Assembly: GCF_027595985.1 (NCBI RefSeq)
Contig: NC_073304.1
Span: 217,498,000 to 217,561,999, forward strand
Direction: 5' to 3'
Origin: Sorex araneus
Taxonomy: Eukaryota > Chordata > Mammalia > Eulipotyphla > Soricidae
Length of the DNA stretch: 64,000 nucleotides
This document shows positions 4,908 through 58,225 of the stretch, piece after piece (the stretch's first letter is position 1; each line of letters opens with the position of its first letter). The translations under genes and the position numbers were made by a program. The notes beneath the pieces are model-generated. The model saw nothing but the letters and a program-made list of their open reading frames with translations. It ran no database searches and had not been told where the DNA came from.

Positions 4908-5206
4908 AGTGGACCCAGAGTGATAGTACAGCAAGTAGGGCATTTGCCTTACACACGGCCAACCCAGGTTTGATCCCTGGCACCCCATATGGACCCTCAA
5001 GCCCACTAGGTGTGATTTCTGAGCACAGAGCCAAGAGTAAACCCTGAGCTCCATCAGGTGTGTCCCCCCCACAAAAAAAAATTAGGGGAAGGGCCCAGAG
5101 ATATAGGTACTTTCCTTGCCTGTGGGTTGACGCAGGTCCCAACCCTGGCATCCTACCTGGTCCCCTGCTGGGAGTGATCCCTGAGCACAGAGACGAATAA
5201 TCCCAG
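4908..5206 (+). mobile_element. Two plus-strand SINEs in tandem
   Basis: 4908-5082 is complete with an A-rich tail. 5090-5206 is shorter and more diverged. Confidence 0.8.
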
Positions 5207-5861: not shown

Positions 5862-6210
5862 GTTTGGGAGCCACACCCAGTGATACTCAGGGGTTCCTTC
5901 TGGCTCTCCGCTCAGGAATCCCTCTTGGCGGTGCTCAGGGGACCATATAAGATTCTGGTTATTGAACCCAGGTCAGCCACATGCGAGAAAAGAGCCCTAC
6001 CTGCTGTATGATCCCTCTAGCCCCAGCTCCCCCATTTTTTTTTCTTTTTTGGGTCACACTCGGCGATGCACAGGGGTTACTCCTGGCTCTGCACTCAGGA
6101 ATTACCCCTGGCGGTGCTCAGAGGAACCATATGGGGTGCTGGGAATTGAACCCAGATCAGCCCCATGCAAGGCAAATGCCCTACCTGCTGTGTTATTGCT
6201 CCAGCCCCAT
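5862..6210 (-). mobile_element. Two minus-strand SINEs
   Basis: 5862-6026 is older and 6037-6210 is near consensus. Both end in a CAGCCCC-type head. Confidence 0.88.
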
Positions 6211-20286: not shown

Positions 20287-20920
20287 TCCGTGCGGCTCCG
20301 TTTTTTTTAAAGGGAAACGCTGAGGCGCCGGGGGTGACTGTGGGGGAGGGGGTCCCCCGAGCCGCGGAGACCCTCGGGAAGGGGTGGGGGGAGGCGGCCG
20401 ACCCCCGCCGCCCGCTTCCCGGAGGAGGAGGGCTTGGGGGCGGATCCAGCCCTCCCACCCCCTCCGGAGCCGGAGGGGTGGGGGGAAATGGAGGCTCGGG
20501 GCGGCTGAGGCGAGCTCCGGGGCGGGGGGCCGGGGCGGGGAAGGGGGGGTTGTGGGGTGGGGAGACGAGGCGGGCCCGGCCGGGCCGGTGGTGGGGGGGC
20601 CGAAGCGAGCTCCGGGGATGAGCTCGGGGGCGGCTGGGTGCGAGCTCCTGCCTGTGAGGCGAAGGCGGCGGCGGCTGCAGCAGAGGCGGCGGCGAGGCCC
20701 CCATGGGCCGGCGACGGGCCTCCGCCGCGGCCTCCCCTTCAGCGCACGCCGGCGGGATGGCGCCCGGGCCCCGGCGGAGCCGCTCTAGCCGAGGCCGCCG
20801 GCCGCGCTGCTGAGCCGAGCCCGCCAAACTCCCCTCCCCCCCGCCGTCCTCGACCCCCCGCTCCGCGCCCCCTCCCCGCCCCCTCCTCCGTCGCGGTGCC
20901 CGGCGCCGCTCCGGACCACT

Positions 20921-21688
20921 ATGACCATGAGATCCGCAGTGTTCAAGGCGGCCGCGGCCCCTGCCGGCGGCAACCCTGAGCAGCGACTGGACTACGAGCG
21001 GGCGGCGGCGCTGGGCGGGCCCGAGGACGAGCCCGGGGCGGCCGAAGCCCACTTCCTCCCCCGGCACCGTAAGCTCAAGGAGCCGGGGCCCCCGCTGGCC
21101 TCGTCCCAGGGCGGGAGCCCCGCGCCCGCCCCGGCCGGCTGCGGCGCCAAAGGCCGGGGCTTGCTCCTGCCGGCCGGGGCGGCCCCCGGGCAGCAGGAAG
21201 AAAGCTGGGGGGGCTCGGTGCCCTTGCCCTGCCCGCCCCCCGCCACCAAGCAGGCCGGCGTGGGGGGAGAGCCCGCGGCCGCCGGCGCCGGCTGCAGCCC
21301 CCGGCCCAAGTATCAGGCGGTGCTGCCCATTCAGACGGGTTCGCTCGTGGCGGCGGCCAAAGAGCCGACGCCCTGGGTGGGGGACAAGGGTGGGGCGGCT
21401 CCCCCAGCGGCCACCGCCTCGGACCCGACGGGACCCCCCCCACTACCTCTGCCCGGGCCGCCCCCCCTCGCGCCCACCGCCACCGCCGGCAGCCTGGCTG
21501 GCAGCGAGGGCCGATGGAAGAGTATGAGGAAGAGCCCGCTCGGGGGCGGCGGCGGCTCGGGGGCCTCCAGCCAGGCCGCCTGCCTCAAACAGATCCTCCT
21601 GCTGCAACTGGACCTCATCGAGCAGCAGCAGCAGCAACTGCAGGCCAAGGAGAAGGAGATCGAGGAGCTGAAGTCGGAGCGGGACACG
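20921..21688 (+). CDS. MSL1: MSL1 coding exon 1 (residues 1-256)
   Basis: Begins at ATG 20921 inside the CpG island and ends at donor GTACGC (21689), phase 0. It encodes the Pro/Gly/Ala-rich N-terminal region, then the start of the coiled coil (CLKQILLLQLDLIEQQQQQL). The frame stays open past the donor to 21790, so intron retention would add a short tail and stop. Confidence 0.95.
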
Positions 21689-24600
21689 GTACGCCAGGGG
21701 TTAATGGGCGTTCGGGGCCCCGGAGCGCGGTGTGCGCATGCTCGGGAGGAAAAGGGGGGGCTCGGGGAGGTTAAGGGCTCCCGGGGTTAGGGGTAAGGTG
21801 GTGGCCCACCCGCCCTGCGTGTCACCTGGGGCAGTCAGGTCCCCGGACACGTTGGGACGAAGAAAAGGGTTAAAGGGCAACCGAGCACGGGCGTGGGGTG
21901 GGGTGGTGGTGGGGAGTTGTTTCAGGCGCGAAAGAGTTAATTTAAAATGACAGCCCCGGAATGGTGGGAAAGACGTTTGGCCTGGGGAAAAGACTGCCCG
22001 CGTGCGGGGTGGGCCGGGAAAGGCGGCCCCACGAGGGTGGCGGCCGGGCGGGAGAGGTCCGGGGTGCCGGTGGGAAGGCGTCCTGCACGGAGCAGCTGTT
22101 GCTGCGGCCGGGAGGGAGCATCTTGACCGGCGAGGGCAGTCAGATCCTCCCATTGGCGGCCAGGTAGCGGTGATTTCACCGCGCAGCCCTAGTTCAGGTG
22201 TCTGAAAACACCCCAGGAGCACGACCGCCTTTGATGTCAGGCAGTTCTTGATTGGTATCTGAGTTGTAAAACATGACCCACTGACCCTCGTGTAAGCGCA
22301 GTGGCGTGGGGGCCGGAAGATAATTTGAGGCGGCAGGGAAAGTTAAGTTTGTTAAGTGGACTGAGTCGACCCTCCTAACCCCCAAGGCCCAATTTCAGTG
22401 TCTTAAGGTAGTGGAGAAGGCATCTCTGTTCCTTCACTCCTGAGGAGCGTGGCTCTTCCAGGCATTTTCCTGCAGCAGGAATGAAGAGCTCCTAAAGAGT
22501 TAAAACATATTCCTTCAGATGTCAGGAAAGCTGTGGCGGGGTAGTACTGTGCTAGCATACCTTACAGCTGCCTAAAAATAAACATGGTTTCTACAATTGT
22601 GTTCAGGCTGCAGCAGTCTCTCTCACACTCTCCACCGCCTCCCCCCCTCCTCTGGCGCTCTGTGCACCACAGCCTGAACAGGGGAACCGCGGGCTATTCA
22701 TCTATTCATTTTGTCTGCTTTCCCCATGAATGGCATCAGGCAGCACTCTTTCATGAGCCTGCATTCCGTAAGGTGCAATGGGAGCCAGGACAGGTCTCAA
22801 TAAAATAGCTCCTGGTGTCGATTTGTGGAAGTTACTCAACATGGCACTGCTCAGCCGCTGGACTGCAGTCCAGGGGTGTGATGGTACTGTAATTACAACA
22901 CTTCACATCCTTACCGGGCTGGGGGGGGGGCGGGCAGTGAAGAAGAAGCCAAAATACCCCACAAGCCTGGGTTAAGTACTGTTAAGGCTGTGAATCAAAA
23001 CAGAAGGATATGAGATGACAAGTGTGACTGACAGGGGGGCTCTTTGCTGATATTGGAGGTTTCTCCTCAGCTCCTGAGGGGAACGGTCTCTTTGCAGACT
23101 TTTCCTAGGCAGTAAGAGTGGGGTGAGTTAAGGATAGAGTGTCAATCTGAACTTGTCGTTCACTGGCTCTGTAGTGTATTGTAGTCTTGATGTTGCTTAA
23201 GCTTTTTTTTCTATTATCCCAGTTGTGTGGCTTCTCCTGAAACCTAAGCATCTGAGTGGATGCAAAAAAGACGACCTTAATATTACTTTCTGTCTAATCC
23301 AAATAAAATTCTTGTTATAGGACATAAATAACACAGTTGTCACCTTTTCTCAGAATATGTAATGTGATGTTTTAGATGATAATCTCCATTTTCTGTGTGA
23401 TTATGTAGACCTCCCTTTAGTTAGAATTAAGACTTATAATAATCAGTACTTGGGTATAAGGCATAAACTTTCTGTTATCACAAATGCAAAACAGTGTGCA
23501 TAGCTCATGATCTTTGCAATTTAAAGTTACCTGGTTTCTTACAAATTGAGTATTCATTGTTTTGGTGGCAGCCCACACCCACGTCCCCAGCACATACACA
23601 TCCTCTTTAAATAACACTGAATTCCCTAGTGACAGTGTGAAAGTGAACTTTTTATTCCCTTATGCCTTGTGTTTGCCTGTGTACAGTTTTGGAGTAGAAG
23701 TGGAGAGGATAGAATTTGAAGAACCTTAGAGCCTCCTGAAAAAAAAAAAATAAAAGCAAGGTTAATTCTGGAAACTCCCAGACTGACTTGGAACCACAAG
23801 ATTTAGCAGCAGGAGCAGAGTCTATGCCATTTAAAAGGCAGGATGTGGCCCCTCTCAGTACAGAGGATCTTCTTTCAGAGGGATGAACTACTACAAATTT
23901 ACTCATGCTTTTCCCCATTAAGGATAGTCCCTAAAGTGAAGCAGTGTACTTTGTCTTCTACATTTTAAGGAAAACTTTTGAGATTAGTACCTGCCTATTA
24001 GAAGTATGTGAACTTGATTAGTTAAAGAGTGAGACAGAAAACCAAACTGATTTCTGAATGAGGCTGAGTACTTGTGTTTAACATTTTGTTTTAAGTCTGC
24101 ATTTTGCCACTCTGTCTTTTAGCTTGTTGCTCGGATTGAACGTATGGAAAGGCGGATGCAGCTGGTAAAGAAGGATAACGAGAAGGAAAGGCACAAGCTG
24201 TTTCAGGGCTATGAAACTGAAGAGAGAGAGGATACGGAGCTATCTGAGAAAATTAAACTGGAGTGCCAGCAGGAGCTTGAGACCTCCCAGACTCTGCCTC
24301 CCAAGCCTTTCTCATGTGGGCGGAGTGGAAAGGGACACAAAAGGTGTGCTGATGTCTTTGTCATGCTGTCTGGATATGAGGAGAACACTTGTGTCCAGTG
24401 ACCAAGAGTGAAGGATTTGGACGTAGAGATTAGTTTTAATTCAGTCATATCCTGAATTATGATATCTTCTGTTTCTGAGAAGCTCTTATAGAAATTCTGT
24501 GTGGTCTATAGAAATCTGTTACAAGCGCCAGAGACAGCAAGTAAGATTCTTCCTTTGCAAACGGCTTACCCAAGTTTGATCCCTGGTACCGAATATGCAC

Positions 24601-27600
24601 CCCACCTCCACCCCACCCCACCCCAGCACAGCTAGGAATGATCCTGAGCACAGTTGTGTATGGCCAGAGAAAAATCTATTACAAATGTTTTGGTCATAGT
24701 AGTAATTAGAGAATGCAGAAACCATCCTAAAGAAAACGTCTGCTGGGGCCAGAATGATAGTATCATGGTTAAGGGTATTTGCCTTTCACGCAACTGCTTC
24801 TGGGTTCCGCAGACCCTCTTTTGGTCCCCTGAGCACTGCCAGGAGTGATCCTTGAGCTCAGAGCTAGGAATAAGTCTTGCAATTTGCCATATGTGGCCCA
24901 AAAGCCCCCAAAGAAGGGGACCGGAAAGGCGCTTGTCTTGTAGGCAGCCAACCCAGAATTGATTCCCAGCAACCCATGTGGTTCCCTGAGCCTTGCCAGG
25001 AGTCAGCCCTGAGCACTCTTGGGTGTGGCCTCAAAACAAAAAAGGGCAACTAATGTCACAGTTGTGTTGCTTTTTTTTTTTCTTGCTTTTTGGGTCACAC
25101 CCAGTGATGCTCAGGGGTTACTCCTGGCTCTGCACTGAGGAATTACTCCTACTTTAAGTTAACTAAGTATAAGCCTCTGGTAGATATAAAAATGTTAAGA
25201 TCTAGGGCCAGAGATGTGGTTCAATAGAATACTTGCCTTTCATATATGAGGCCCTGGGTAACAAAACAAAAATAACAAAATCTAATCATCCTGTTAAAGA
25301 TATGATTGTCTAGCTCTAAAGGTGGTATACATTTGAAAATTCAGGATTTGATTGCAATAAAGTAGATTACAATGACATAGGAGTTTTTATTTTATGGTTT
25401 TGAAGCCACACCACTGTGCTTAAGGTTTACTCCTAACTCTGCTCAGAGGCCTCAGAGGCATTGCTTAGGGGATGATGTGTGGTGCTACAGTTAAACCTGG
25501 GTAGGTCACACACAAGGCAAGTACCTTACGCACCCACTGGACTATCTCTCTGGCCTAAGATATGGGAACTTTGAAAAGTATTCTGAGAGAGAGTAATGAA
25601 ACTTTAAGGAGACGATTCTTTATAAAGAAGTACAGAATTTAGGATGGTAGAAATAAAAGATAACATTCTAGGAATGTGGGGGAGGGGTGGGAGAGAGCAG
25701 ATAGATTGCAAGAAAGGATTTTAAGTAATATGGTATAGGATTTGGAGTGGTAGATGGAGATAAGAGACTGGTCTCTGCTTGACAGGAATGAGCTAGAAAA
25801 GCCACAGTCATGGCCCCTAATATTAGCTAAAAGGAGTTTGTGTTGTGTTTTGTTTTAGGTTTTGGGTTTTGGGCTACACCTGGTGATGATGCTAAGGTGT
25901 TAACTTCTAGCTCTGCACTCAGGAATTGCTCCTGGTGGTACACAGGGAACCATATGGGATGCCCACTGGACTATTGCTCCAGCCCCAAGGAACTTGAGGT
26001 TCTATTTATTCATTTATTTATTTATTTATTTATTTATGGCCTTTGGGCCACACCCAGCAGTGCTCAGGGGTTATTCCTGACTCTGTGCTTGGGGATCACT
26101 TCTGGCAGTGCTTGGGGAACCATATGGGATGCTGGGGATTGAACCTGGGTTGACCACGTGCAAGGCAAATGCCCTGCCTCCTGTATTATCTCTCCAGCCC
26201 CTCCCCCTCTCCCTTTTTTTGCAGGGGGACAGGAGGTCATACTCAGCTGCACTCAGGGCTTACTGCTGGCTGTGCACTTCAGACATCAGTTCTGGCCATG
26301 CTCAGTGACCATATGGGTTGCCTGGTATCAAACCTGGGTTAACCACATACAAGGCAAATGCTTTACCTGTTAACTATCTCTGGCCCCAAGCAGCTTGAAT
26401 AAAACAGGAATCTTTTTTAGATTTACTAGGCAATAGAATGCTATCCAGGATCCTTAAGCATGGAAATTCATTCAGCAGATGTTTACTAAGGATCAAATTC
26501 AGATCAGCTATGTGCAAAGCAAGTGCCTTACTCACTGTACTATCTCTTCGGCCCCCAATCATATATATATATATATATTTTTCTTTTTTGGGTCACACCT
26601 GGTGATGCACAGGGGTTACTCCTGGCTCTGCACTCAGGAATTACCCCTGGCGGTGCTCAGGGGACCATATGGGATGCTGGGAATTGAACCCAGGTTGGCC
26701 ACGTGCAAGGCAAACGCCCTACTCGCTGTGCTATTGCTCCAATCCCAATCATATATACTGTTTTTTTTTTTTTTTGGTTTTTGGGTCACACCCAGCAATG
26801 CACAGGGGTTACTCCTGGCTTATGCACTCAGGAATTACACCTGGCGGTGCTCGGGGGACCATATGGGATGCTGGGGATTGAACCCAGGTTGGCCACGTGC
26901 AAGGCAAACACCCTACCCGCTGTGCTATTGCTCCAGCCCCACCAATCACATATACTCTTTTTTTTTAAAATTTATTTATTTTTGCTTTTTTTGGGTCACA
27001 CCCAGCAATGCACAGGGGTTACTCCTGGTTCTGTACCCAGGAATTACCCCTGGCGGTGCTCAGGGGACCATATGGGATGCTGGGAATTGAACCTGGGTTG
27101 GCCGAGTGCAAGTCAAACGCCCTACCCGCTGTGCTATTGCTCCAGCCCCCAATCATATATACTCTTAAGCATGAGACTATTCCTGCTCATGACTGCTTAC
27201 GAAAACATTTAGGTATGTAGGTATTGGAAATTTGGGGGCAAGAGAACTACTTTGTTTTCTTGTCCCCAAATGTAATAGTTTAGTTTAAGAGTCAATAAAC
27301 CTTATATTTTTTTTCCCTATCTAATAGGAAATCGTCATTTGGAAGTACAGAAAGAAAGATTCCTGTAAAAAAGCTGGCTCCTGAATTTTCAAAAGTCAAA
27401 ACAAAAACTCCTAAGCACTCTCCTGTTAAAGAGGAACCCTGTGGTTCCTTATCTGAAACTGTTTGTAAACGTGAATTGAGGAGCCAAGAAACTCCAGAAA
27501 AGCCCCGCTCTTCAGTGGATACCCCACCAAGACTCTCCACTCCCCAGAAGGGACCCAGCACCCATCCGAAGGAGAAAGCCTCAAGTGAGATAGAAGATTT

Positions 27601-30600
27601 GCCGTACCTTTCCACCACAGAAATGTATTTGTGTCGTTGGCACCAGCCTCCCCCATCACCGTTACCATTACGGGAATCCTCTCCAAAGAAGGAGGAGACT
27701 GTAGCAAGTAAGGCATAGAGAACACTTGCTCTTATACCCTAGTGGTGGCGGTCAAGCTAACAAGTGTGAAAATGCCCTTGGCATTTTTTAAAAAGTGCAA
27801 TCAATAAAGCAGAGTTCTGTCAAGAATGAGTAAGTTAACAGCCAGAGACAGACACTGTGCAGGCATTGCAAATAGATGGAATCACAGCAAAATGTGCTCA
27901 ATGTATTTGCCTGCTTACAACACTGGGAGATGTGTTTGCCAGTAAGTTGCTCATCACAAGAGCACCAGACTTGGGGGTGTAATCTCCAGCAACTTGCATG
28001 CCCTCTGAAAGAAAGGTTTTCTGTGCTGTGAAATGCATAGAACTTATACTTTGCCATACACGACTGTTCTGCAATTGATACTGTGTGAAATCTTGGAGGG
28101 TGGTCTTTGGGTAATCTCAGGGGCCAATGGTAATTTTTGGGTTGGGGAGCCAGCTTGGGGTGGGAAATTTCACCTGGGCCTCCGCTCTTTAACTATATAA
28201 ACATTTATCTGTATCTCTATGTCCCGGTTGGGGGGGGCGGGCAGGAGGAATCTGCCAAAGACCAACAGTCTTACTTATCTTACTATACTTCACAAAGGTT
28301 CTAAATGTGAAGAGTTTACTTGGATTGCAGTAGCCCATTGGTTGTTCATATATTTAAATAAAATGGTCTACAAACTATTTTTCAAACAATAAGGACTATC
28401 TTGGGATATCTGAGCTGCTTGGGGACGGTGTGGGGGTTATGGGACTTGTTCTTCATTCCCTTTTTTTCTTCATGGCTCCCATACAGAAGCTTCCCTATCT
28501 CCTACATCAACCAGTAACTGGAATGTGCCTTCAATCGTGTAATGTTAGTCTATGACAGTCACCTCTGGGTGCTTCGGGTGACTGTGGGAGAAGCTTTCTT
28601 GGATAGAACTGAGCTTCCAGTTTCTACCACTATGTCTTGCCCTAGCAAGGATGGGGATGGGCATTCCAATAAGATGAGTATTCTCCAGGCTTTGTTTGGC
28701 TGTTCTGGTGACAAAATTATGTGGGGGAAAGATAGATGACTCTTCTAATGATCTAAAATCCATTTGGTCTCACACTTGAGTACACGAGATAGGCCAGGAT
28801 CCTGGTCTAGGTTTGGGTTCTTTGTCGGTTCAGTCAGTTGAACAGGTTTATCCTTAATGGTTACCCTTCTTGCTGCCATGGCAATGCTGTGTATCAACTT
28901 AAGGGAAATGGTGAAGCAACTTCCCATCCGGGATTGGGAAATGGCTTGGTCCAGAGCTCTTCTTGTGACTAGCTGTTTTTGAAAACCTTTTCTGCTTAAG
29001 TACAGAAAATAACAAAATACCTCTGAGATTGTTGGCATTTATTGTGGTTCAGAAAAGAGTGATTCGGGGGGAGTCCCAGGCCCTTTGAGGAGCCTAGTTG
29101 TAAATAAATGTGTGAATCCTTATTCTTGATGCCCCTATCTCAAGAGGACTTCTCAATGGCTTGTTCTAAGGAAGCCAAAGGCTTTTGTGCATGTTGTTCA
29201 GGCTGGACCAGCAAGTTAGTTTGTTTGCAGGGAGGAGGGAGCTGTTGAAGAAGACTACATATGTAAGTTTTGAGAACACTGATCTGTTATTTGAAAAATA
29301 GGGTCAACTTTTACTCACCTGCCATGTTCTGAGTTTAAGGTTTGATATCCTTGGCCATCAACTGTTGCAGGGAAACCACCCTAAATAATGAAGAAAAGAA
29401 GTCGTCTCAGTGTAAAAAAAAAAGTGGTGGGCTTATTTTCTTTTCTTTTTGTCTGTTGTTCCCTCTTCCCCTCCCCCCAGAAAGAGATTCTCAACAACTC
29501 AAAAAAACCAAAATGGCTTCTTAGAGAGAACTTCAGTGATGATCCTTTCCTCCATTTTGGGTACGGGCTTTTTTTCTTTTTACACTGAGATGATTCTTCT
29601 TTCCTGCATTATTTAGGGTGTCTGATGCCATCAAGTGTTGCAGGAGAAACTTCAGTCTTGGCTGGTGAGTAGAATAGGAATTGTGTTGGCTGGGCCTGGG
29701 GGTGGTGGGAGTGGGTGGGGTGGTGGATGGTTGGGAGCTGCGTTTACCATCAGTTGGATATGGGAGAGAGAGCGAGAGAGAGATTCCTTGGCATTTGATT
29801 ACACTTTAGACTTCAAAATGACTATAAATTTCAGTTGTTTTTCAGGAACTGCAGTAGCATCCATTATATGAATTGTCAGGTATTGGCTTAGGTTTTCTTG
29901 TGATTCTGTGTTTGGCAGATTGCAATGGCATGAGGTTGCTTTCATAGTCTACCATAGTGAGGACACTGAAAATGGCTTCAAGTGAGGCCATAGAACAGAT
30001 TCCTAACCATTGGTAACTTGATCTTCTCTGGGGAAAACTTCTTGTCCTAGTGAATGGTAGGAGGGTTGTGTGACCTTGGATTTAAGGGTGGTTCCACCCC
30101 TCCTCCCTTTCTTTTTCTTTCTTTTTCTTTTCAGTTCCTTCTTGGAGGGACCACTCAGTAGAGCCTCTAAGGGACCCAAATCCTTCAGATCTTTTGGAGG
30201 TAGGTACCAGAGAGCCATCAGTTGGAGGGGGTAAGAGACAGAGAAGTGGTTGTATAGTTTGACAATATATCATAATCATTCTGTAAATGAGTTAAATAGA
30301 ACTTTAAAGCCAGAAGGGAATTTGAGAGAATGTTATAGTCTTTTTTGTTTGTTTTGGACCACATCCTGCAGTGTTCAGGAGTTACTCCTGACTCTGCACT
30401 CAGGAATCACTCTTGGCAGACTAGGGGTACCAAATGGGATGTGGAGGGTTAAATCCGGGTTGGTCATGTGCAAGGTAAACATCCTACCTGATGTACTATC
30501 TCTCTGGCATGAGAATATTACCTAGTTTAATTCTTTTTATTTTAGATGGAAAAACAGGTCCACAGGTCCAATGTAGTTAGGTGATTTATTAAAAACTATG

Positions 30601-36839: not shown

Positions 36840-38410
36840 AATAAATAACAAAAATTATATCTGTCACATCCTCCACTACCTCCACTACCCAGCCACTGCC
36901 ACGCTCCAGGCTGCTTTCTGGACACTCGAGCTGAACCTCATGCATGAGTGAAGCCCCACAGAACCAGGTAAAACAGAACTTTGTAACCTTGGACTCTAGG
37001 CTCAACGAGACCCTGAAACAGAGATCCTCTGTCTGCCTCCCCCAATCTCTGGTGCCCTACGAATCACACCCAGACAACCTATCCTACTGGCGCCAAATAA
37101 ATACCTCATCAGCCAACCTCCACTACCTCCACTACCCAGCCACCCCCACGCTCCAGGCCGCTTTCCAGACCGCGCAGCTGCAACATCATAAGACATTTAA
37201 TACCCATTTTTCTTAATTGCCACACTATATTTGATGGGGTTCAAATATGGTGTGAACCAATGGGAACACTTGTAAAGGCGATTAGACGCCGCCCTAAAAG
37301 CCTCCATCCCTCTCAGAGAGCCCGGCAAGCTACTGAGAGTACCCCACCCACACAGCAGAACCTGGCAAGCTACCCATGGTATATTCGATAATGCCAAAAA
37401 CAGTAACAACAACGGGCCTCGTTTGCATGACACCAGAAAAGCCCCCCAATATGGCAGCATTAAGAAGGATGAGCAAGGGGAGACTGATAAAATCTCAGGG
37501 ACAAACTAGACTGCCAAAACAGAGAAAGACTAAAATGACTGTACTTTCAATGCACGTATGCTGGCATCGGAAGAATCCATTGAGGACCTGATGGTGCAAG
37601 CACAGAAGATCAAGTACATCATTGGTCTGACTGAAATAAGAAGGTATCGATCACATCACGCCATTTTCGACACTGGAGAAGAACTGTTCCTCGGAATGAC
37701 AATAAAGGCGTTGATGGCGTTGGTGTCCTTGTCAACATGAACTTGGCCATGAGCATTGATTCATTCGGATGCCTAAAAGCCCGATTACGCTTGAATAGAA
37801 GTGGTTCACTGCCAGCAGTTTCTATCTTCGTCGTCTATGAACCAACATTCAACTATGATGAAGAAGAAATTGAGAAGTTCTACATGGAGGTGGAAAAGTT
37901 CTACAAAGAAGACCACACCTTCTACAAGATCATTGTCGGTGATTTTAATGCCAAGATAGAACCGAGAAGGTGGCTCAAAGAACACATCGGGACCCATGAC
38001 CTAGAATGGAACGAACAGGGTGAGAGACCGAGTTCATCATCTTGACCAAGAGCATCCATGGTAACTCACAGTTCCAGAAGGCCAAATCTAAACGTTGGAC
38101 CTGGGAGTCTCCCGGTGGACAGTTCCACAATGAAATTGACCACATCATATTCAACCGATGGTTTTGCCTGACTGATGTCGCTATTGTCCCAAAATTCCAA
38201 ACAGGATCAGGCCACTGTCTCCTTCGTGCAAAATTCTACTTCACAGAGCAGGGAGAAAGGAGTGCAAAGTTTAAGTTTAAGAAGATAACTCCCAGAATGA
38301 CCACCAACTGGGAGCTCTTTTAACACTATTGCCGCAATGTGGGAAGATGCCGTTGTTGACAACGTCGATGAGGAATACAATAGACAAAGAATATCTTTGT
38401 CAAATAAGAC
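36840..38410 (+). mobile_element. Degenerate RTE-clade retrotransposon: leader and APE-type endonuclease, no reverse transcriptase
   Basis: Three frames, 37558-37740, 37737-38045 and 38042-38323, together give an RTE endonuclease domain. Recognisable pieces are IKYIIGLTEIRR, GEELFLG, IIVGDFNAKI, IHGNSQFQK, NEIDHI and VAIVPKFQTGSGH. The frame changes mean it cannot be translated as one protein. The catalytic GSDH motif reads GSGH. The element stops before the reverse transcriptase domain, where a SINE starts at about 38,415. The wording is strikingly like nematode RTE elements. A 247-bp-spaced direct repeat lies in the leader. It is a dead copy; the element's true 5' limit is uncertain. Confidence 0.85.
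36871..37182 (+). repeat. Direct repeat with 247-bp spacing in the RTE leader
   Basis: The stretch starting CTCCACTACCTCCACTACCC at 36871 recurs at 37118. About 60 bp are nearly identical, and a weaker match (CAAATAAATA) lies just upstream of both. This suggests monomer-like units at the 5' end of the element. Confidence 0.7.
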
Positions 38411-38414
38411 AAAA

Positions 38415-38560
38415 AGTTAGCCTTGCATGCAGCTGACTGGGGTTCGATTCCCAGCATCCCATATGGTCCCTTGAGCACTGCCACGAGTAAGTCCTGAGTG
38501 CAGAGCCAGGAGTAACCCCTGAGCACTGCCAGGTGTGCTCCACCTCCCTTCTACCGCTCA
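38415..38560 (+). mobile_element. SINE lacking its first part, at the RTE break
   Basis: Starts TTAGCCTTGCATGCAGCTGA, that is, after the A box, directly against the RTE remnant. Confidence 0.82.
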
Positions 38561-38630
38561 AGGCCCTCCCCCGCCATCAAAAATTTAAAAAACAGAAACA
38601 ACTACTGAGTTTTAATTGGAGGATATGTAT

Positions 38631-38765
38631 CACTTGTCATCCCGTTGATCTTCAATTTGCTCGAGTGGGCGCCAGTAATATCTCCATTCGTCCCTGGTGC
38701 ATGCTACTGTAGCACAGTGATATCTGCTCGCTCCAGGAACATGAAAAGTCTCAAACCATTCAGGT
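38631..38765 (-). mobile_element. RTE-related 3' end, minus strand
   Basis: The reverse complement of 38631-38719 aligns with 57333-57415 (ATGGAGATATTACTGG, then CTCGAGCAAATTGA). The sequence further 5' in the element does not match the 57228 copy. Confidence 0.65.
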
Positions 38766-39060
38766 TTTTTTTTTGGGGGGGGGGTCACACCTGGCGATGT
38801 ACAATAAATCCTGGCAGTGTTTTGGGGATCATATGGAATGCCCAGGATTATCTTTTTTTTTTCTTTTTCTTTTTTTTTTTTTTTTGCTTATGCGCTCAGG
38901 AATTACTCCTGGCAGTGCTCGGGGGAACATATGGGATGCTGGGAATCCAACCTGGGTTGGCCTTGTGCAGGGCAAACTCCCTATCCGCTGTGCTATCAAT
39001 CCAGCCCCTGTAATGCCCAGGAGTTAACCTGGGTCATACAAGGCAAGCGCCCCATCTGGA
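38763..39060 (-). mobile_element. SINE inserted into a SINE
   Basis: The inner copy, 38850-39007, sits between AATGCCCAGGATTA (38836) and TAATGCCCAGGAGTTA (39011). The outer copy is split into 38763-38849 and 39008-39060. Confidence 0.85.
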
Positions 39061-55800: not shown

Positions 55801-58225
55801 GGAGCAGGACCTCCGCCGCAGTTCAACCGGATGGAAGAAATGGTACAGAGGGGAAGGGAGGTTAGGGAGGGAATTCAGAGTCATTTTTCCCATTTATTAC
55901 CCATGTTTCTTCTATTTTTTTTAACCACATGTATGGAGTAGAATATAACTTCAAATTGTTTTTCATTGATTACCAACCCCCCACCACCTTTTTTGTAAAA
56001 TGTAAATACCTGCCGTGCATATGTTGTTTTATAACACCTAAGAGGGAGATCAACTTGATTTGAGAGACAGATTACAGAATTCTCTTTATTTCAGGGTGTC
56101 CAGGCTGGGCGAGCTAAACGCTATTCATCCCAGCGCCAGAGACCTGTACCAGAGCCCCCTGCCCCGCCTGTGCATATCAGTATCATGGAAGGACATTACT
56201 ATGATCCATGTGAGTTTTCCTTCCTGCTGGGTTCCTTTCTTGGCAGACTGCAGTGAACTAAGAAACAAGCCTATTGCTTGCTGAGTTTCCCTTTGTGACC
56301 TCTTACAAGTGATTCTCAAACATTGTGTGTAGTTTTCTTCACATAGAAAATTGCAAACATCTTGTAAAGGGTTTGCAGGGACCAGAAGACTTACCTCTGT
56401 GGTATGAGGAGTGAAGGTTTATGAGCGTCTTAATGTGATATTTTACAGTGCAGTTCCAGGGACCAATCTATACCCATGGTGACAGCCCTGCCCCGCTGCC
56501 TCCTCAGGGCATGATTGTGCAGCCTGAAATGCACCTTCCCCACCCAGGTAAGCCTTGCACTTCTTCCTTTCATGCACCCAGTACTTGAGGCTATATGTTA
56601 GAGCCTTCACAAACCCCATTCTTTTTGAGCTTTGTGCTGCCTATGAGGCCGGTCACTCTGGTTGCTGGGGCAGCAAATTCCTTCTGGGACCATCCTGAGT
56701 ACTTCCATTTGTTTGTTCTGAGCAGTCCAGCCATCCTGTCCCATGGAAATGGTTATATCTTCTGCTTCAATTTTTGTTTTCCTCTCCTTGTCTAGGTTTA
56801 CATCCCCACCAGACACCGGCACCTCTGCCCAATCCGGGCCTCTATCCCCCACCAGTGTCCATGTCTCCAGGACAGCCACCACCTCAGCAATTGCTTGCTC
56901 CTACTTACTTTTCTGCTCCAGGTGTCATGAACTTTGGTAATCCCAGTTACCCTTATGCTCCAGGGGCACTGCCTCCCCCACCACCACCTCATCTATATCC
57001 TAATACACAGGTGAGTTGACTAATGAGCAGATGCTAAGTGCTCAAATCATACAGGAATGTGGTATGAGGGCACTGTTCAAGGAATTAAGAGTATTTCAAT
57101 ACAGCTTGTGGTGCTAGGATGCCCCATGGTGGTCAGAAACTGGAAATGCAGCTTATGTAATGCCCATCATTTGTTCTCTCCAGGTTTTTTAATGATTTTT
57201 TTTTCCCTGGGGATCATGTGTTGCTAGAGCCTGGCAAGCTATCCATGGCATACTCAATATGCCAAAAACAGTAACAATGACAGTCCTCATTCCCCTGACC
57301 CTGAAAGAGCCCCCAATGCGCCATCGGGCTACACTAGCACGTGACAGGGACAAATGGAGACATTACTGGCATCCGCTCGAGCAAATTGATGAACAATGGG
57401 ATGACAGTGATACAGTATAATGATGTGTTGCTACGGATGAACCCAGGACTCTCACATGCAAAGCACATACTCCCAGCAGCCCTTTGAGCAATCTCCCCTG
57501 CTTAATAATATTTCGCTCTAGTACTTTGATACATCTTAGATGACCATGTCACTATTTATTCAACTGCATAAGACTGTATTCTACTTACCAGCCCTACCCC
57601 TCCTGTACTGCTTAACTCCCAACAGGTTGACACCATCTGATATCTGGAGTGTCACCACTGTGTTCAGCCTCTTCCACTTATCAGCTGATGGTAGGAATTA
57701 GAGAAAGCTGGGGAGTATTTTGAAGAAATAGGAACCAGAATATAAATAGGGAAAATTAAGACAGAATTTGTTACTTTCTTTAAAGGGGGGGCATCTTAGA
57801 AATTTAAAAAATAAAACATTTGTTAGTACTCTATTTTTGTGACTGTTTTCATTTCATCGTGCTTTAGATGAATTAATTTCTTTTTCTCCTGACTTATTGG
57901 GGGTCATAGGCCCCATCACAGGTGTATGGAGGAGTGACCTACTATAACCCTGCCCAGCAACAGGTGCAGCCAAAGCCCTCCCCACCCCGCAGGACTCCCC
58001 AGCCAGTCACCATCAAGCCCCCACCCCCTGAGGTAGGAGCCGGCCTTCCCAAGCTGGGGACCCCTGTTAGCTGCTGTGGTCTTTTCTTTTCCCAGAGACG
58101 TTCCCGCCTTTCCTGCATGTGTGGAAAAGAACGTATTTTTTTGTTGTTGTTTTGTTTTGTTTTTTAAGGTCTGATAACTAATTCCAGCTTGATTATTTCA
58201 GGTTGTAAGCAGGGGTTCCAGTTAA
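40642..58225 (+). CDS. CASC3: CASC3 (MLN51/Barentsz), exon junction complex core subunit (13 coding exons)
   Basis: CASC3 clamps onto eIF4A3-MAGOH-RBM8A on spliced RNA and acts in mRNA localisation, translation and nonsense-mediated decay. Coding exons: 40642-40872, 41189-41216, 41566-41603, 50617-50778, 50871-51022, 51581-51757, 52922-53607, 55778-55842, 56095-56209, 56449-56547, 56796-57010, 57910-58032 and 58202-58225 (TAA). They join in phase into 2,115 nt, or 704 residues (human 703). The start MADRRRQRAS has a strong context (AAG ATG G). The SELOR region, about residues 138-284, carries Phe189 and Trp219, which correspond to human Phe188 and Trp218 at the eIF4A3 interface. An Arg/Ser-rich middle follows, then a Pro-rich C-terminus ending VVSRGSS. 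Intron 3 is about 9 kb and full of SINEs. No break is seen. Contact residues are family knowledge; the exon structure is read directly. Confidence 0.97.
41189..41216 (+). CDS. CASC3: CASC3 coding exon 2 (residues 78-87)
   Basis: A 28-nt micro-exon between TCCCTCAG and GTGAGT. Encodes ESEDGIEGD plus the first base of an Ala codon completed by exon 3. Confidence 0.92.
41566..41603 (+). CDS. CASC3: CASC3 coding exon 3 (residues 87-99)
   Basis: 38 nt between TTTTCAG and GTGAGT. Encodes AVLSDYESAEDSE. The following intron is about 9 kb. Confidence 0.92.
41713..41875 (-). mobile_element. SINE with internal deletion, CASC3 intron 3
   Basis: About 25 bp between the B box and A box is missing (GAATCGAACGCCCTACCC). 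CTCAGCAA occurs on both sides. Confidence 0.92.
42185..42373 (-). mobile_element. Old SINE that served as target for later copies
   Basis: Degenerate copy ending ATCTCCCCAGCTCTG, the site used by the two following insertions. Confidence 0.7.
42386..42582 (-). mobile_element. Young SINE, serial insertion 1
   Basis: TCCCCAGCTCTG at 42374 and 42583. CpG sites are intact (GGGTCGGCCGCGTGC). Confidence 0.95.
42595..42742 (-). mobile_element. Older SINE, serial insertion 2
   Basis: Lies between the TCCCCAGCTCTG copies at 42583 and 42743. Confidence 0.85.
43100..44980. mobile_element. SINE cluster, CASC3 intron 3
   Basis: Plus 43100-43190 (poor); minus 43199-43376, 43630-43805 (young), 43960-44040, 44514-44698, 44700-44850 and 44860-44980. 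ID-like piece at 43440-43505. Confidence 0.78.
45172..45437 (-). mobile_element. ID-like piece (45172-45245) and SINE (45261-45436)
   Basis: The SINE is flanked by AAAATAACTTTT on both sides. Confidence 0.82.
45455..45690. mobile_element. Head-to-head SINE pair
   Basis: Minus 45455-45590 meets plus 45591-45690 at GGTTGCGTGTGGCCAACC. Both lack their heads. Confidence 0.75.
45691..46170. other. CASC3 intron 3, no recognised feature
   Basis: No SINE and no exon is visible. Confidence 0.5.
46178..46870. mobile_element. SINEs: plus 46178-46360, minus 46470-46650, minus 46720-46870
   Basis: The first is clear. The other two are degenerate but keep the GGCCAAACCTGGCAGTG or TCTCTGGTC ends. Confidence 0.7.
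47086..47290 (+). repeat. Polypyrimidine tract in CASC3 intron 3
   Basis: About 205 bp almost only C and T, in CT, CCCT and CCTT arrangements. Not attached to a SINE tail, unlike the one at 4038. Confidence 0.92.
47412..47596 (+). mobile_element. Young SINE with target duplication
   Basis: AATTAGTGGCT occurs just before the head and again at 47597-47607. Long clean poly(A) and intact CpG sites. Confidence 0.96.
47638..47808 (-). mobile_element. Young SINE inverted to its neighbour
   Basis: Near-consensus; 41 bp from the plus copy at 47412, so the intron RNA can form a long hairpin. Confidence 0.93.
48070..50095. mobile_element. SINE cluster, CASC3 intron 3
   Basis: Minus 48070-48185; plus 48215-48365, 48374-48540, 48545-48715 and 48720-48880; minus 48955-49122, 49357-49535, 49540-49705 and 49707-49842; plus 49865-49935 and 49950-50095. 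Confidence 0.78.
50127..50314 (+). mobile_element. Young SINE
   Basis: Intact GCACGCGGCCGACCCGGGTT and a long poly(A). A short target duplication, TGTTAG, lies at 50122 and 50315. Confidence 0.93.
50334..50513 (+). mobile_element. Young SINE, about 100 bp before CASC3 exon 4
   Basis: GTTTTCTT at 50326-50333 and 50514-50521. The exon 4 acceptor lies at 50616. Confidence 0.94.
50617..50778 (+). CDS. CASC3: CASC3 coding exon 4 (residues 100-153)
   Basis: Acceptor TTTAAG, then GEEVGEYSEEENSKVELKSE and a Glu/Lys-rich stretch, then donor GTCAGT. It reads GEEVGEY where I recall GEEGEY in human; this Val accounts for the one-residue length difference. Confidence 0.95.
50871..51022 (+). CDS. CASC3: CASC3 coding exon 5 (residues 154-204, first half of the SELOR core)
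   Basis: 152 nt between CCTCTAG and GTAAGA. Encodes YIPRKGLFFEHDLRGQT, which contains Phe189, the eIF4A3-contact phenylalanine of the family. Confidence 0.95.
51450..52680. mobile_element. SINE cluster around CASC3 exon 6
   Basis: ID-like 51450-51530 (before exon 6) and 51805-51880; SOR-type minus 51893-51990, 52010-52150 and 52165-52345; plus fragment 52395-52525; minus 52525-52680. A GT/AT simple repeat lies at 52348-52388. Confidence 0.68.
51581..51757 (+). CDS. CASC3: CASC3 coding exon 6 (residues 204-263, second half of the SELOR core)
   Basis: Acceptor CTTCTAG. Encodes RQRKLWKDEGRWEHDKFRED, with the key Trp219. The donor is GTTGAG, the weakest in the gene; reading through it adds six codons and stops at 51777-51779. 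Confidence 0.94.
52725..52886 (-). mobile_element. SINE just upstream of CASC3 exon 7
   Basis: Near-consensus minus copy. It ends in CTGACCCCAG followed at once by GTAAGA, a cryptic donor, 35 bp before the exon 7 acceptor. Confidence 0.9.
52922..53607 (+). CDS. CASC3: CASC3 coding exon 7 (residues 263-492, largest coding exon)
   Basis: 686 nt from acceptor TTTTCCAG to donor GTATGT. Encodes the Arg/Gly/Ser-rich region and the start of the Pro-rich half (QLNITEQNWSPGQPSF near the end). A minus-strand SINE ends about 35 bp before its acceptor. Confidence 0.95.
53860..55640. mobile_element. SINEs in CASC3 intron 7
   Basis: Minus 53860-54030, 54190-54357 (good) and 54425-54580; plus 54630-54770, 55255-55360 and 55475-55640. 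An L1 3' end lies between them. Confidence 0.76.
54868..55160 (-). mobile_element. L1 3' end, older subfamily
   Basis: On the minus strand: a G-rich tract, ATTGGTGGTGGAGAACAGAC, GAGGGATGGGC, then AATAAA with an AAAT-type tail. It is related to the copy at 62821 but clearly diverged. The inner limit is approximate. It lies in CASC3 intron 7. Confidence 0.75.
55778..55842 (+). CDS. CASC3: CASC3 coding exon 8 (residues 492-513)
   Basis: 65 nt between TTGCAG and GTACAG. Encodes GMPNHIHMGAGPPPQFNRME plus EM. Confidence 0.93.
56095..56209 (+). CDS. CASC3: CASC3 coding exon 9 (residues 514-552)
   Basis: 115 nt between TTTCAG and GTGAGT. Encodes GVQAGRAKRYSSQRQRPVPE and a Pro-rich stretch ending HYYDP. 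Confidence 0.94.
56449..56547 (+). CDS. CASC3: CASC3 coding exon 10 (residues 552-585)
   Basis: 99 nt between TTTACAG and GTAAGC. Encodes LQFQGPIYTHGDSPAPLPPQ and GMIVQPEMHLPHP. Confidence 0.94.
56796..57010 (+). CDS. CASC3: CASC3 coding exon 11 (residues 585-656)
   Basis: 215 nt between GTCTAG and GTGAGT. Encodes the most proline-rich segment, with PPPVSMSPGQPPPQQLLAPT and a PPPPPPHLYPNTQ end. Confidence 0.94.
57228..57420 (+). mobile_element. Short RTE-related element (5' leader joined to 3' end)
   Basis: The first 110 bp match the RTE leader at 37360-37460 (CCTGGCAAGCTA...GCCAAAAACAGTAACAA). The rest ends in CTCGAGCAAATTGATGAACA and GATGACAGTGATACAG, which looks like an RTE 3' terminus. 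It lies in CASC3 intron 11. Confidence 0.7.
57910..58032 (+). CDS. CASC3: CASC3 coding exon 12 (residues 657-697)
   Basis: 123 nt between GTCATAG and GTAGGA. Encodes APSQVYGGVTYYNPAQQQVQ and a Pro/Lys tail. Confidence 0.94.
58202..58225 (+). CDS. CASC3: CASC3 last coding segment (residues 698-704, stop TAA)
   Basis: Acceptor ATTTCAG, then VVSRGSS and TAA, identical to the human C-terminus. The exon runs on untranslated to donor GTAAGT at 58266. Confidence 0.93.
   Translation, partial: VVSRGSS

Follow-up and report, generated by a model that had tools for sequence, protein, structure and literature searches.

The DNA studied here, called the window below, is a stretch of 64,000 nucleotides from the genome of the common shrew, Sorex araneus (contig NC_073304.1, positions 217,498,000 to 217,561,999, forward strand). 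The gene MSL1 lies at 20789-21787 (+), where the Pfam family MSL1_dimer is matched (E 2.8e-18), and the frame at 27299-27715 (+), which has no Pfam hit, presumably belongs to MSL1 too. A first-pass annotation had placed a broken retrotransposon between two housekeeping genes. The upstream one stands as MSL1; nine other open frames gave no Pfam match. A primer listed as Soricidae-specific (PMC8608897) finds 31 sites in the window with up to two mismatches, and 0 in 100 shuffles, so that the SINEs mark the host as a shrew. The retroelement features are given in Table 1.

Table 1. Retroelement features of the window and, in the last three lines, loci of a shorter form found in fetched copies.
Feature	Position	Strand	Details
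Broken RTE copy, most likely of RTE1_Sar type	36869..38385	+	5' end present; reverse transcriptase and 3' end missing
Tandem 5'-leader units (n=2)	36867..37189	+	36867-36941 / 37114-37189; 85.7 % identity, 247 bp apart; window self-match
Endonuclease region	37534..38323	+	three overlapping frames, 37534-37740, 37635-38045 and 38024-38323; ORF table and Pfam read-through
Sequence without assignment at the 3' break of the relic	38386..38415		30 bp
Shrew SINE copy adjoining the broken RTE	38416..38537	+	dozens of window matches; Soricidae primer site inside
RTE fragment, 3'-terminal 135 bp	38626..38760	-	85 % match with the 3' end of L016, a long copy
RTE-derived SINE	57226..57414	+	leader part (as 37357-37446) joined to the RTE 3' end; coding region absent
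Form of ~175 bp	L018:4927-5103	-	
Form of ~175 bp	L020:961-1138	-	
Form of ~175 bp	L025:5861-6039	+	

The extent first proposed for the relic, 36840..38410, was nearly right, the measured element covering about 36869-38385 and the SINE beginning at 38416. A start at 36867-36880, with the same CTCCACTACC-like sequence, is seen by alignment in 7 of the 20 RTE copies fetched from the genome (L009-L028), so the 5' end of the window relic resembles that of other long copies. Two of these seven (L016 and L024) additionally match part of another unit farther upstream, and the amount of leader units kept varies among the fetched copies. At the other side, RTE sequence goes on past the position of 38385 in 9/9 copies inspected. 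The window relic stops there and is short of the 3' two kilobases, including the reverse transcriptase. In the search with 37300-38410 and in the alignments of the fetched copies, no RTE alignment extended past 38385 except the match of the query to itself. A direct repeat was looked for around the relic and none was found. Twin priming was considered for the pieces at 36869-38385 (+) and 38626-38760 (-) and rejected; their order is opposite to the expected one, and they are therefore taken as separate insertions.

The broken endonuclease read in the first-pass annotation is indeed present, with GEELFLG in the frame 37534-37740 and IHGNSQFQK and VAIVPKFQTGSGH in the frame 38024-38323. Taken singly, its pieces gave no significant match in Pfam. 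Joined into one reading, with an X wherever the frame changes, they give Exo_endo_phos_2 at E 0.002 (profile positions 2-114 of 117) and Exo_endo_phos at E 0.0028. Both hits stay below the Pfam curated cut-offs, and in the PDB only irrelevant matches were obtained. Repetition in the genome is a stronger proof of an RTE than the Pfam match. With 37300-38410 as query against the shrew's own genome (2.406 Gb, 65 contigs), identities of 83-100 % over all or most of 37300-38385 were found at the 40 places scored, query included, of 11,780 first-look candidates.

Elements of the RTE clade carry an apurinic-type endonuclease upstream of a reverse transcriptase, measure ~3.3-3.6 kb, end in a 3' tail of short repeats and show 5' truncation. 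The long copies of the shrew family are 3.43-3.54 kb (six measured), with tails of ACAAGTGAT units at their 3' ends and varied 5' starts. The reverse transcriptase family RVT_1 was detected in stop-free downstream pieces of four other copies, in two above the cut-off (E 3.4e-21 and 1.8e-12) and in two below it (E 3.2e-5 and 5e-4). Thus the family has the endonuclease upstream of the reverse transcriptase, the latter being absent from the window copy, and an RTE relic in the shrew genome is borne out by repetition, by the Pfam read-through and by the reverse transcriptase of the long copies. An endonuclease tag was found at 5,169 places genome-wide and an RTE-type 3'-end tag (30 bases, up to two mismatches) at 6,029 (0 for each reversed-pattern control); since the tag patterns used in this work (endonuclease, two 3' ends, VAV3 junction) differ in length and place, all tag counts are minimum values and can be compared only roughly. 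A degenerate endonuclease motif gave zero matches, even in the window itself, being so strict that its zeros mean little. No relatives of the RTE were found in viral contigs, bacterial and species genomes, phages or plasmids.

The only other leader match found in the window is the short element at 57226-57414, flanked by an exact direct repeat of 11 bp (57216-57226 / 57423-57433). Both of its halves match all 14 RTE copies with a visible 3' end (79-89 % for the 3' part); the other six of the 20 fetched copies had no alignment to the 3' end and were left out. An element that has its 3' end in common with a LINE and is devoid of coding region corresponds to an RTE-dependent SINE. The 3' ends of the two forms differ, being GATGAACAACGGGATGACAGTGAT in the SINE type and GAAGATCAATGGGATGACAAGTGAT in the RTE type. 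The SINE-type tag (30 bases, up to two mismatches), which pools all short forms, was found at no fewer than 46,113 places (reversed control 0), so that the short forms outnumber the parent RTE (46,113 vs 6,029 3'-end tags, a rough comparison). There is also a still shorter form, of ~175 bp, in which a shrew-SINE-like head is fused to the 5' side of the RTE parts (Table 1). Among the RTE copies, a direct repeat of at least 8 bp is absent in 7 of 12 (L011 and L020 were dropped from the 14), and the control of mismatched pairs reaches 8 in 6/132.

In some short copies the upstream side continues into sequence whose translation resembles FDLAQTL.D.VLLCQLLNNLRAHSINLKEINLRPQMSQ. In the copy L032, 38 residues of it match the Vav-3 chain 2d86 of the PDB (E 1.3e-16). 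In Pfam the best match of the same residues is CAMSAP_CH (E 5.6e-8), the general CH family staying below the cut-off, and the name VAV3 is hence founded on the PDB match and on the gene itself. The true VAV3 gene has its exon 1 at G000:C8:57892325-57892528 and its exon 2 at C8:57974146-57974280; the human VAV3 exon gave as its top match C8:57892325 (96 %), upstream of exon 2. Searches with the VAV3 head gave highly significant matches at all places scored, namely 40 of 3,993 candidates with DNA and 150 of 2,225 with protein. Of the 150 places scored with the human exon, one is VAV3, another (C2:237341017) is probably VAV2, and 148 are presumed element copies.

The captured piece ends where exon 1 ends. 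In 11/11 aligned elements the VAV3 match stops within two bases of the splice donor (CAG/GT), although these endings amount to one observation because the copies share one founding event. Thirteen distinct elements were compared (from 14 loci, as L049 and L032 are the same place); in 12, the last 30 bases of the exon show 27-30 identities to the VAV3 gene, and the head of L047 is too altered to display the exon end. The 30 bases after the junction have only 8-10 identities to the VAV3 intron in 13/13 elements, which is about chance. The heads thus end at a splice donor as a captured exon does, to within two bases, the breakpoint being certain only to that extent since the VAV3 intron and the linker both start with GT.

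The exon is followed by a linker of 91 bp and then by the RTE leader from GGGAACACC. The RTE body follows the head in 10/10 fetched copies and its 3' end is reached in 9/10. In five copies (L031 and L053-L056) the RTE leader is also present upstream, which means that the captured block lies inside the leader. Junctions of exon and linker were counted at 1,777 or more places (up to two mismatches; control 0), and no VAV3 head was seen among the 20 fetched RTE copies. VAV3 intron 1 is ~82 kb long, and a scan of its first 22 kb revealed neither the linker nor a ~250-bp piece that precedes the VAV3 leader; the RTE copies, the window and 23 kb of the VAV3 locus likewise gave no source for the linker. 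Inside the ~250-bp piece upstream of the head of L031 there are 29 bases, CTCGGCCTTTTGCCTAAGATCAAGTGTAG, which we take to be U2 snRNA-like. VAV3 intron 1 itself contains an ordinary short copy of the RTE-derived SINE (L060:6083-6264); it is devoid of the linker and is consequently not the source element.

Direct repeats of 12-13 bp surround 3/7 VAV3-headed copies (maximum for mismatched pairs 9, n=42), and none of 8 bp or longer was present in the remaining 4/7; three of the ten copies (L052, L053 and L055) were dropped because an end was undefined. These repeats, together with the varying 5' starts of the copies, indicate that the VAV3-headed elements retrotransposed. L050 and L058 begin at nearly one point, oriented at about 1220-1250 (GGCAAGATGG / GGTAAGATGG), which is perhaps a transcription start.

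The position of the VAV3 start ATG reads ATA in 5/7 aligned copies. L055 has a different change in this codon, and in L054 ATG can be read solely because one base is deleted, with a resulting frameshift. Departures from the majority in the captured exon (11 copies) are 20, 20 and 20 of 418 per codon position. Selection on the captured exon was therefore rejected, the three positions varying equally, and with the start codon lost the exon travels as DNA and not as protein. No protein function is proposed for the captured VAV3 codons.

In our reading, which we hold to be very probable, the locus preserves a dead relic of RTE1_Sar, this RTE gave rise to a SINE, and a lineage of that SINE carried a spliced VAV3 exon 1 and then multiplied. 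Non-LTR elements nick DNA with their endonuclease and reverse transcribe their own RNA from its 3' end. RTE RNAs without the coding region, keeping leader and 3' end, would have become the SINE whose structure and number are described above, and the RTE enzyme may well have mobilised these short RNAs. A transcript carrying VAV3 exon 1 would have been spliced to a short linker that connects it with the RTE leader; splicing is suggested because the VAV3 similarity breaks off at the splice donor and does not continue into the intron. This spliced RNA would have been reverse transcribed, and the resulting chimera would have multiplied through the genome, leaving at least 1,777 detectable junctions. 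Alternatively, the VAV3 piece could have been joined to the RTE leader without splicing, by DNA recombination or by RNA template switching. Template switching is a known ability of non-LTR enzymes, no acceptor site has been reconstructed, and the linker and the ~250-bp piece have no traced source, all of which fit such a joining. However, a random break would seldom fall within two bases of the exon-1 donor, and this origin appears unlikely, even though the 11/11 endings count once.

The window relic may be a chimeric retrocopy, the RTE 5' part having been fused during reverse transcription to a shrew SINE 3' part, instead of having been shortened by a later deletion. The cut 3' side of the RTE meets the SINE copy across just 30 bp, as a fusion would have it, but no direct repeat was found, at the thresholds used, between the RTE 5' flank and 38380-38830, and we regard the fusion as rather doubtful. 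As for its family, the relic most likely belongs to RTE1_Sar, named by published description, host and abundance; the RTE in the shrew stands from the first-pass annotation. The transfer between nematodes and the common shrew that this annotation mentioned is in print (2019, strongylids; PMC6542046). According to that report, the common shrew is the only mammal with RTE1_Sar, copies being absent from hedgehog, solenodon and star-nosed mole, and nine parasitic nematodes have it as well; the RTE1_Sar consensus and the one from Heligmosomoides polygyrus share 80.1 % identity, contamination was excluded by read tests, and the direction of transfer is likely but unconfirmed (PMC6542046). These data speak against the nearest relatives being other mammalian RTEs of BovB type, with no transfer, which we consider very improbable. 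Like RTE1_Sar as described there (PMC6542046), the window copy belongs to an RTE family that is abundant in the shrew and whose copies diverge without sign of constraint; unlike it, the window copy has neither reverse transcriptase nor 3' end. The relic alone is ordinary, an additional member of a family already reported.

The first-pass annotation also took the locus as datable, and this does not hold, since a single locus does not date the transfer. The median pairwise K2P divergence is 0.143 among RTE copies (21 copies, 210 pairs), 0.116 among short bodies (20 copies, 190 pairs) and 0.115 among VAV3 heads (11 copies, 55 pairs), values biased low because the samples are the best-scoring copies, ranked nearest to each query. 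At an assumed rate of 2-5 substitutions per 1e9 sites per year, the divergence of 0.143 would place the end of RTE activity, very roughly, at ~14-36 million years ago.

Horizontal transfer of the family had already been reported, and what is added is its aftermath, in which short forms far outnumber the incoming element and one SINE branch came to copy a host exon around the genome together with part of the VAV3 leader. We think it fairly probable that an RTE of probable nematode origin gave rise to a mammal's own SINE, which carries a captured spliced VAV3 exon 1 at well over a thousand places. As far as searches show, the VAV3-headed derivative is undescribed in the openly licensed PubMed Central literature, and a word search of the main text of PMC6542046 returned neither SINE nor non-autonomous nor monomer. 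For annotation, caution is needed, as this shrew has well over a thousand look-alikes of VAV3 exon 1. The finding also raises the question of whether GC-rich first exons aid such elements by bringing a promoter.

In ruminants, BovB is an RTE-clade parent and Bov-A and Bov-tA are short derivatives with its ends. The shrew elements likewise comprise an RTE-clade parent and short derivatives with parental ends, although they belong to a different RTE family. No captured gene exon is known to us among the BovB derivatives, and we know of no other exon-capture family outside great apes and of no other one driven by a horizontally acquired RTE. The body of an SVA consists of Alu-like, VNTR and SINE-R parts, whereas that of the VAV3-headed element is RTE-derived, so that the latter works like SVA_F1 and is not an SVA member. 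As described for human SVA_F1 (MAST2 exon 1, 84 copies) and chimpanzee pt_SVA_D6 (STK40 exon 1, 94 copies), a non-autonomous retroelement that multiplies has at its head the first exon of a gene, reaching to the exon's 3' end (PMC6139936). Unlike them, the shrew element has an RTE chassis, its gene is VAV3 and its host is a shrew. With 1,777 junctions against the 84 and 94 SVA copies given in that report (PMC6139936), it is about twenty times as numerous, and it parallels SVA exon capture independently, on a far larger scale and with another enzyme.
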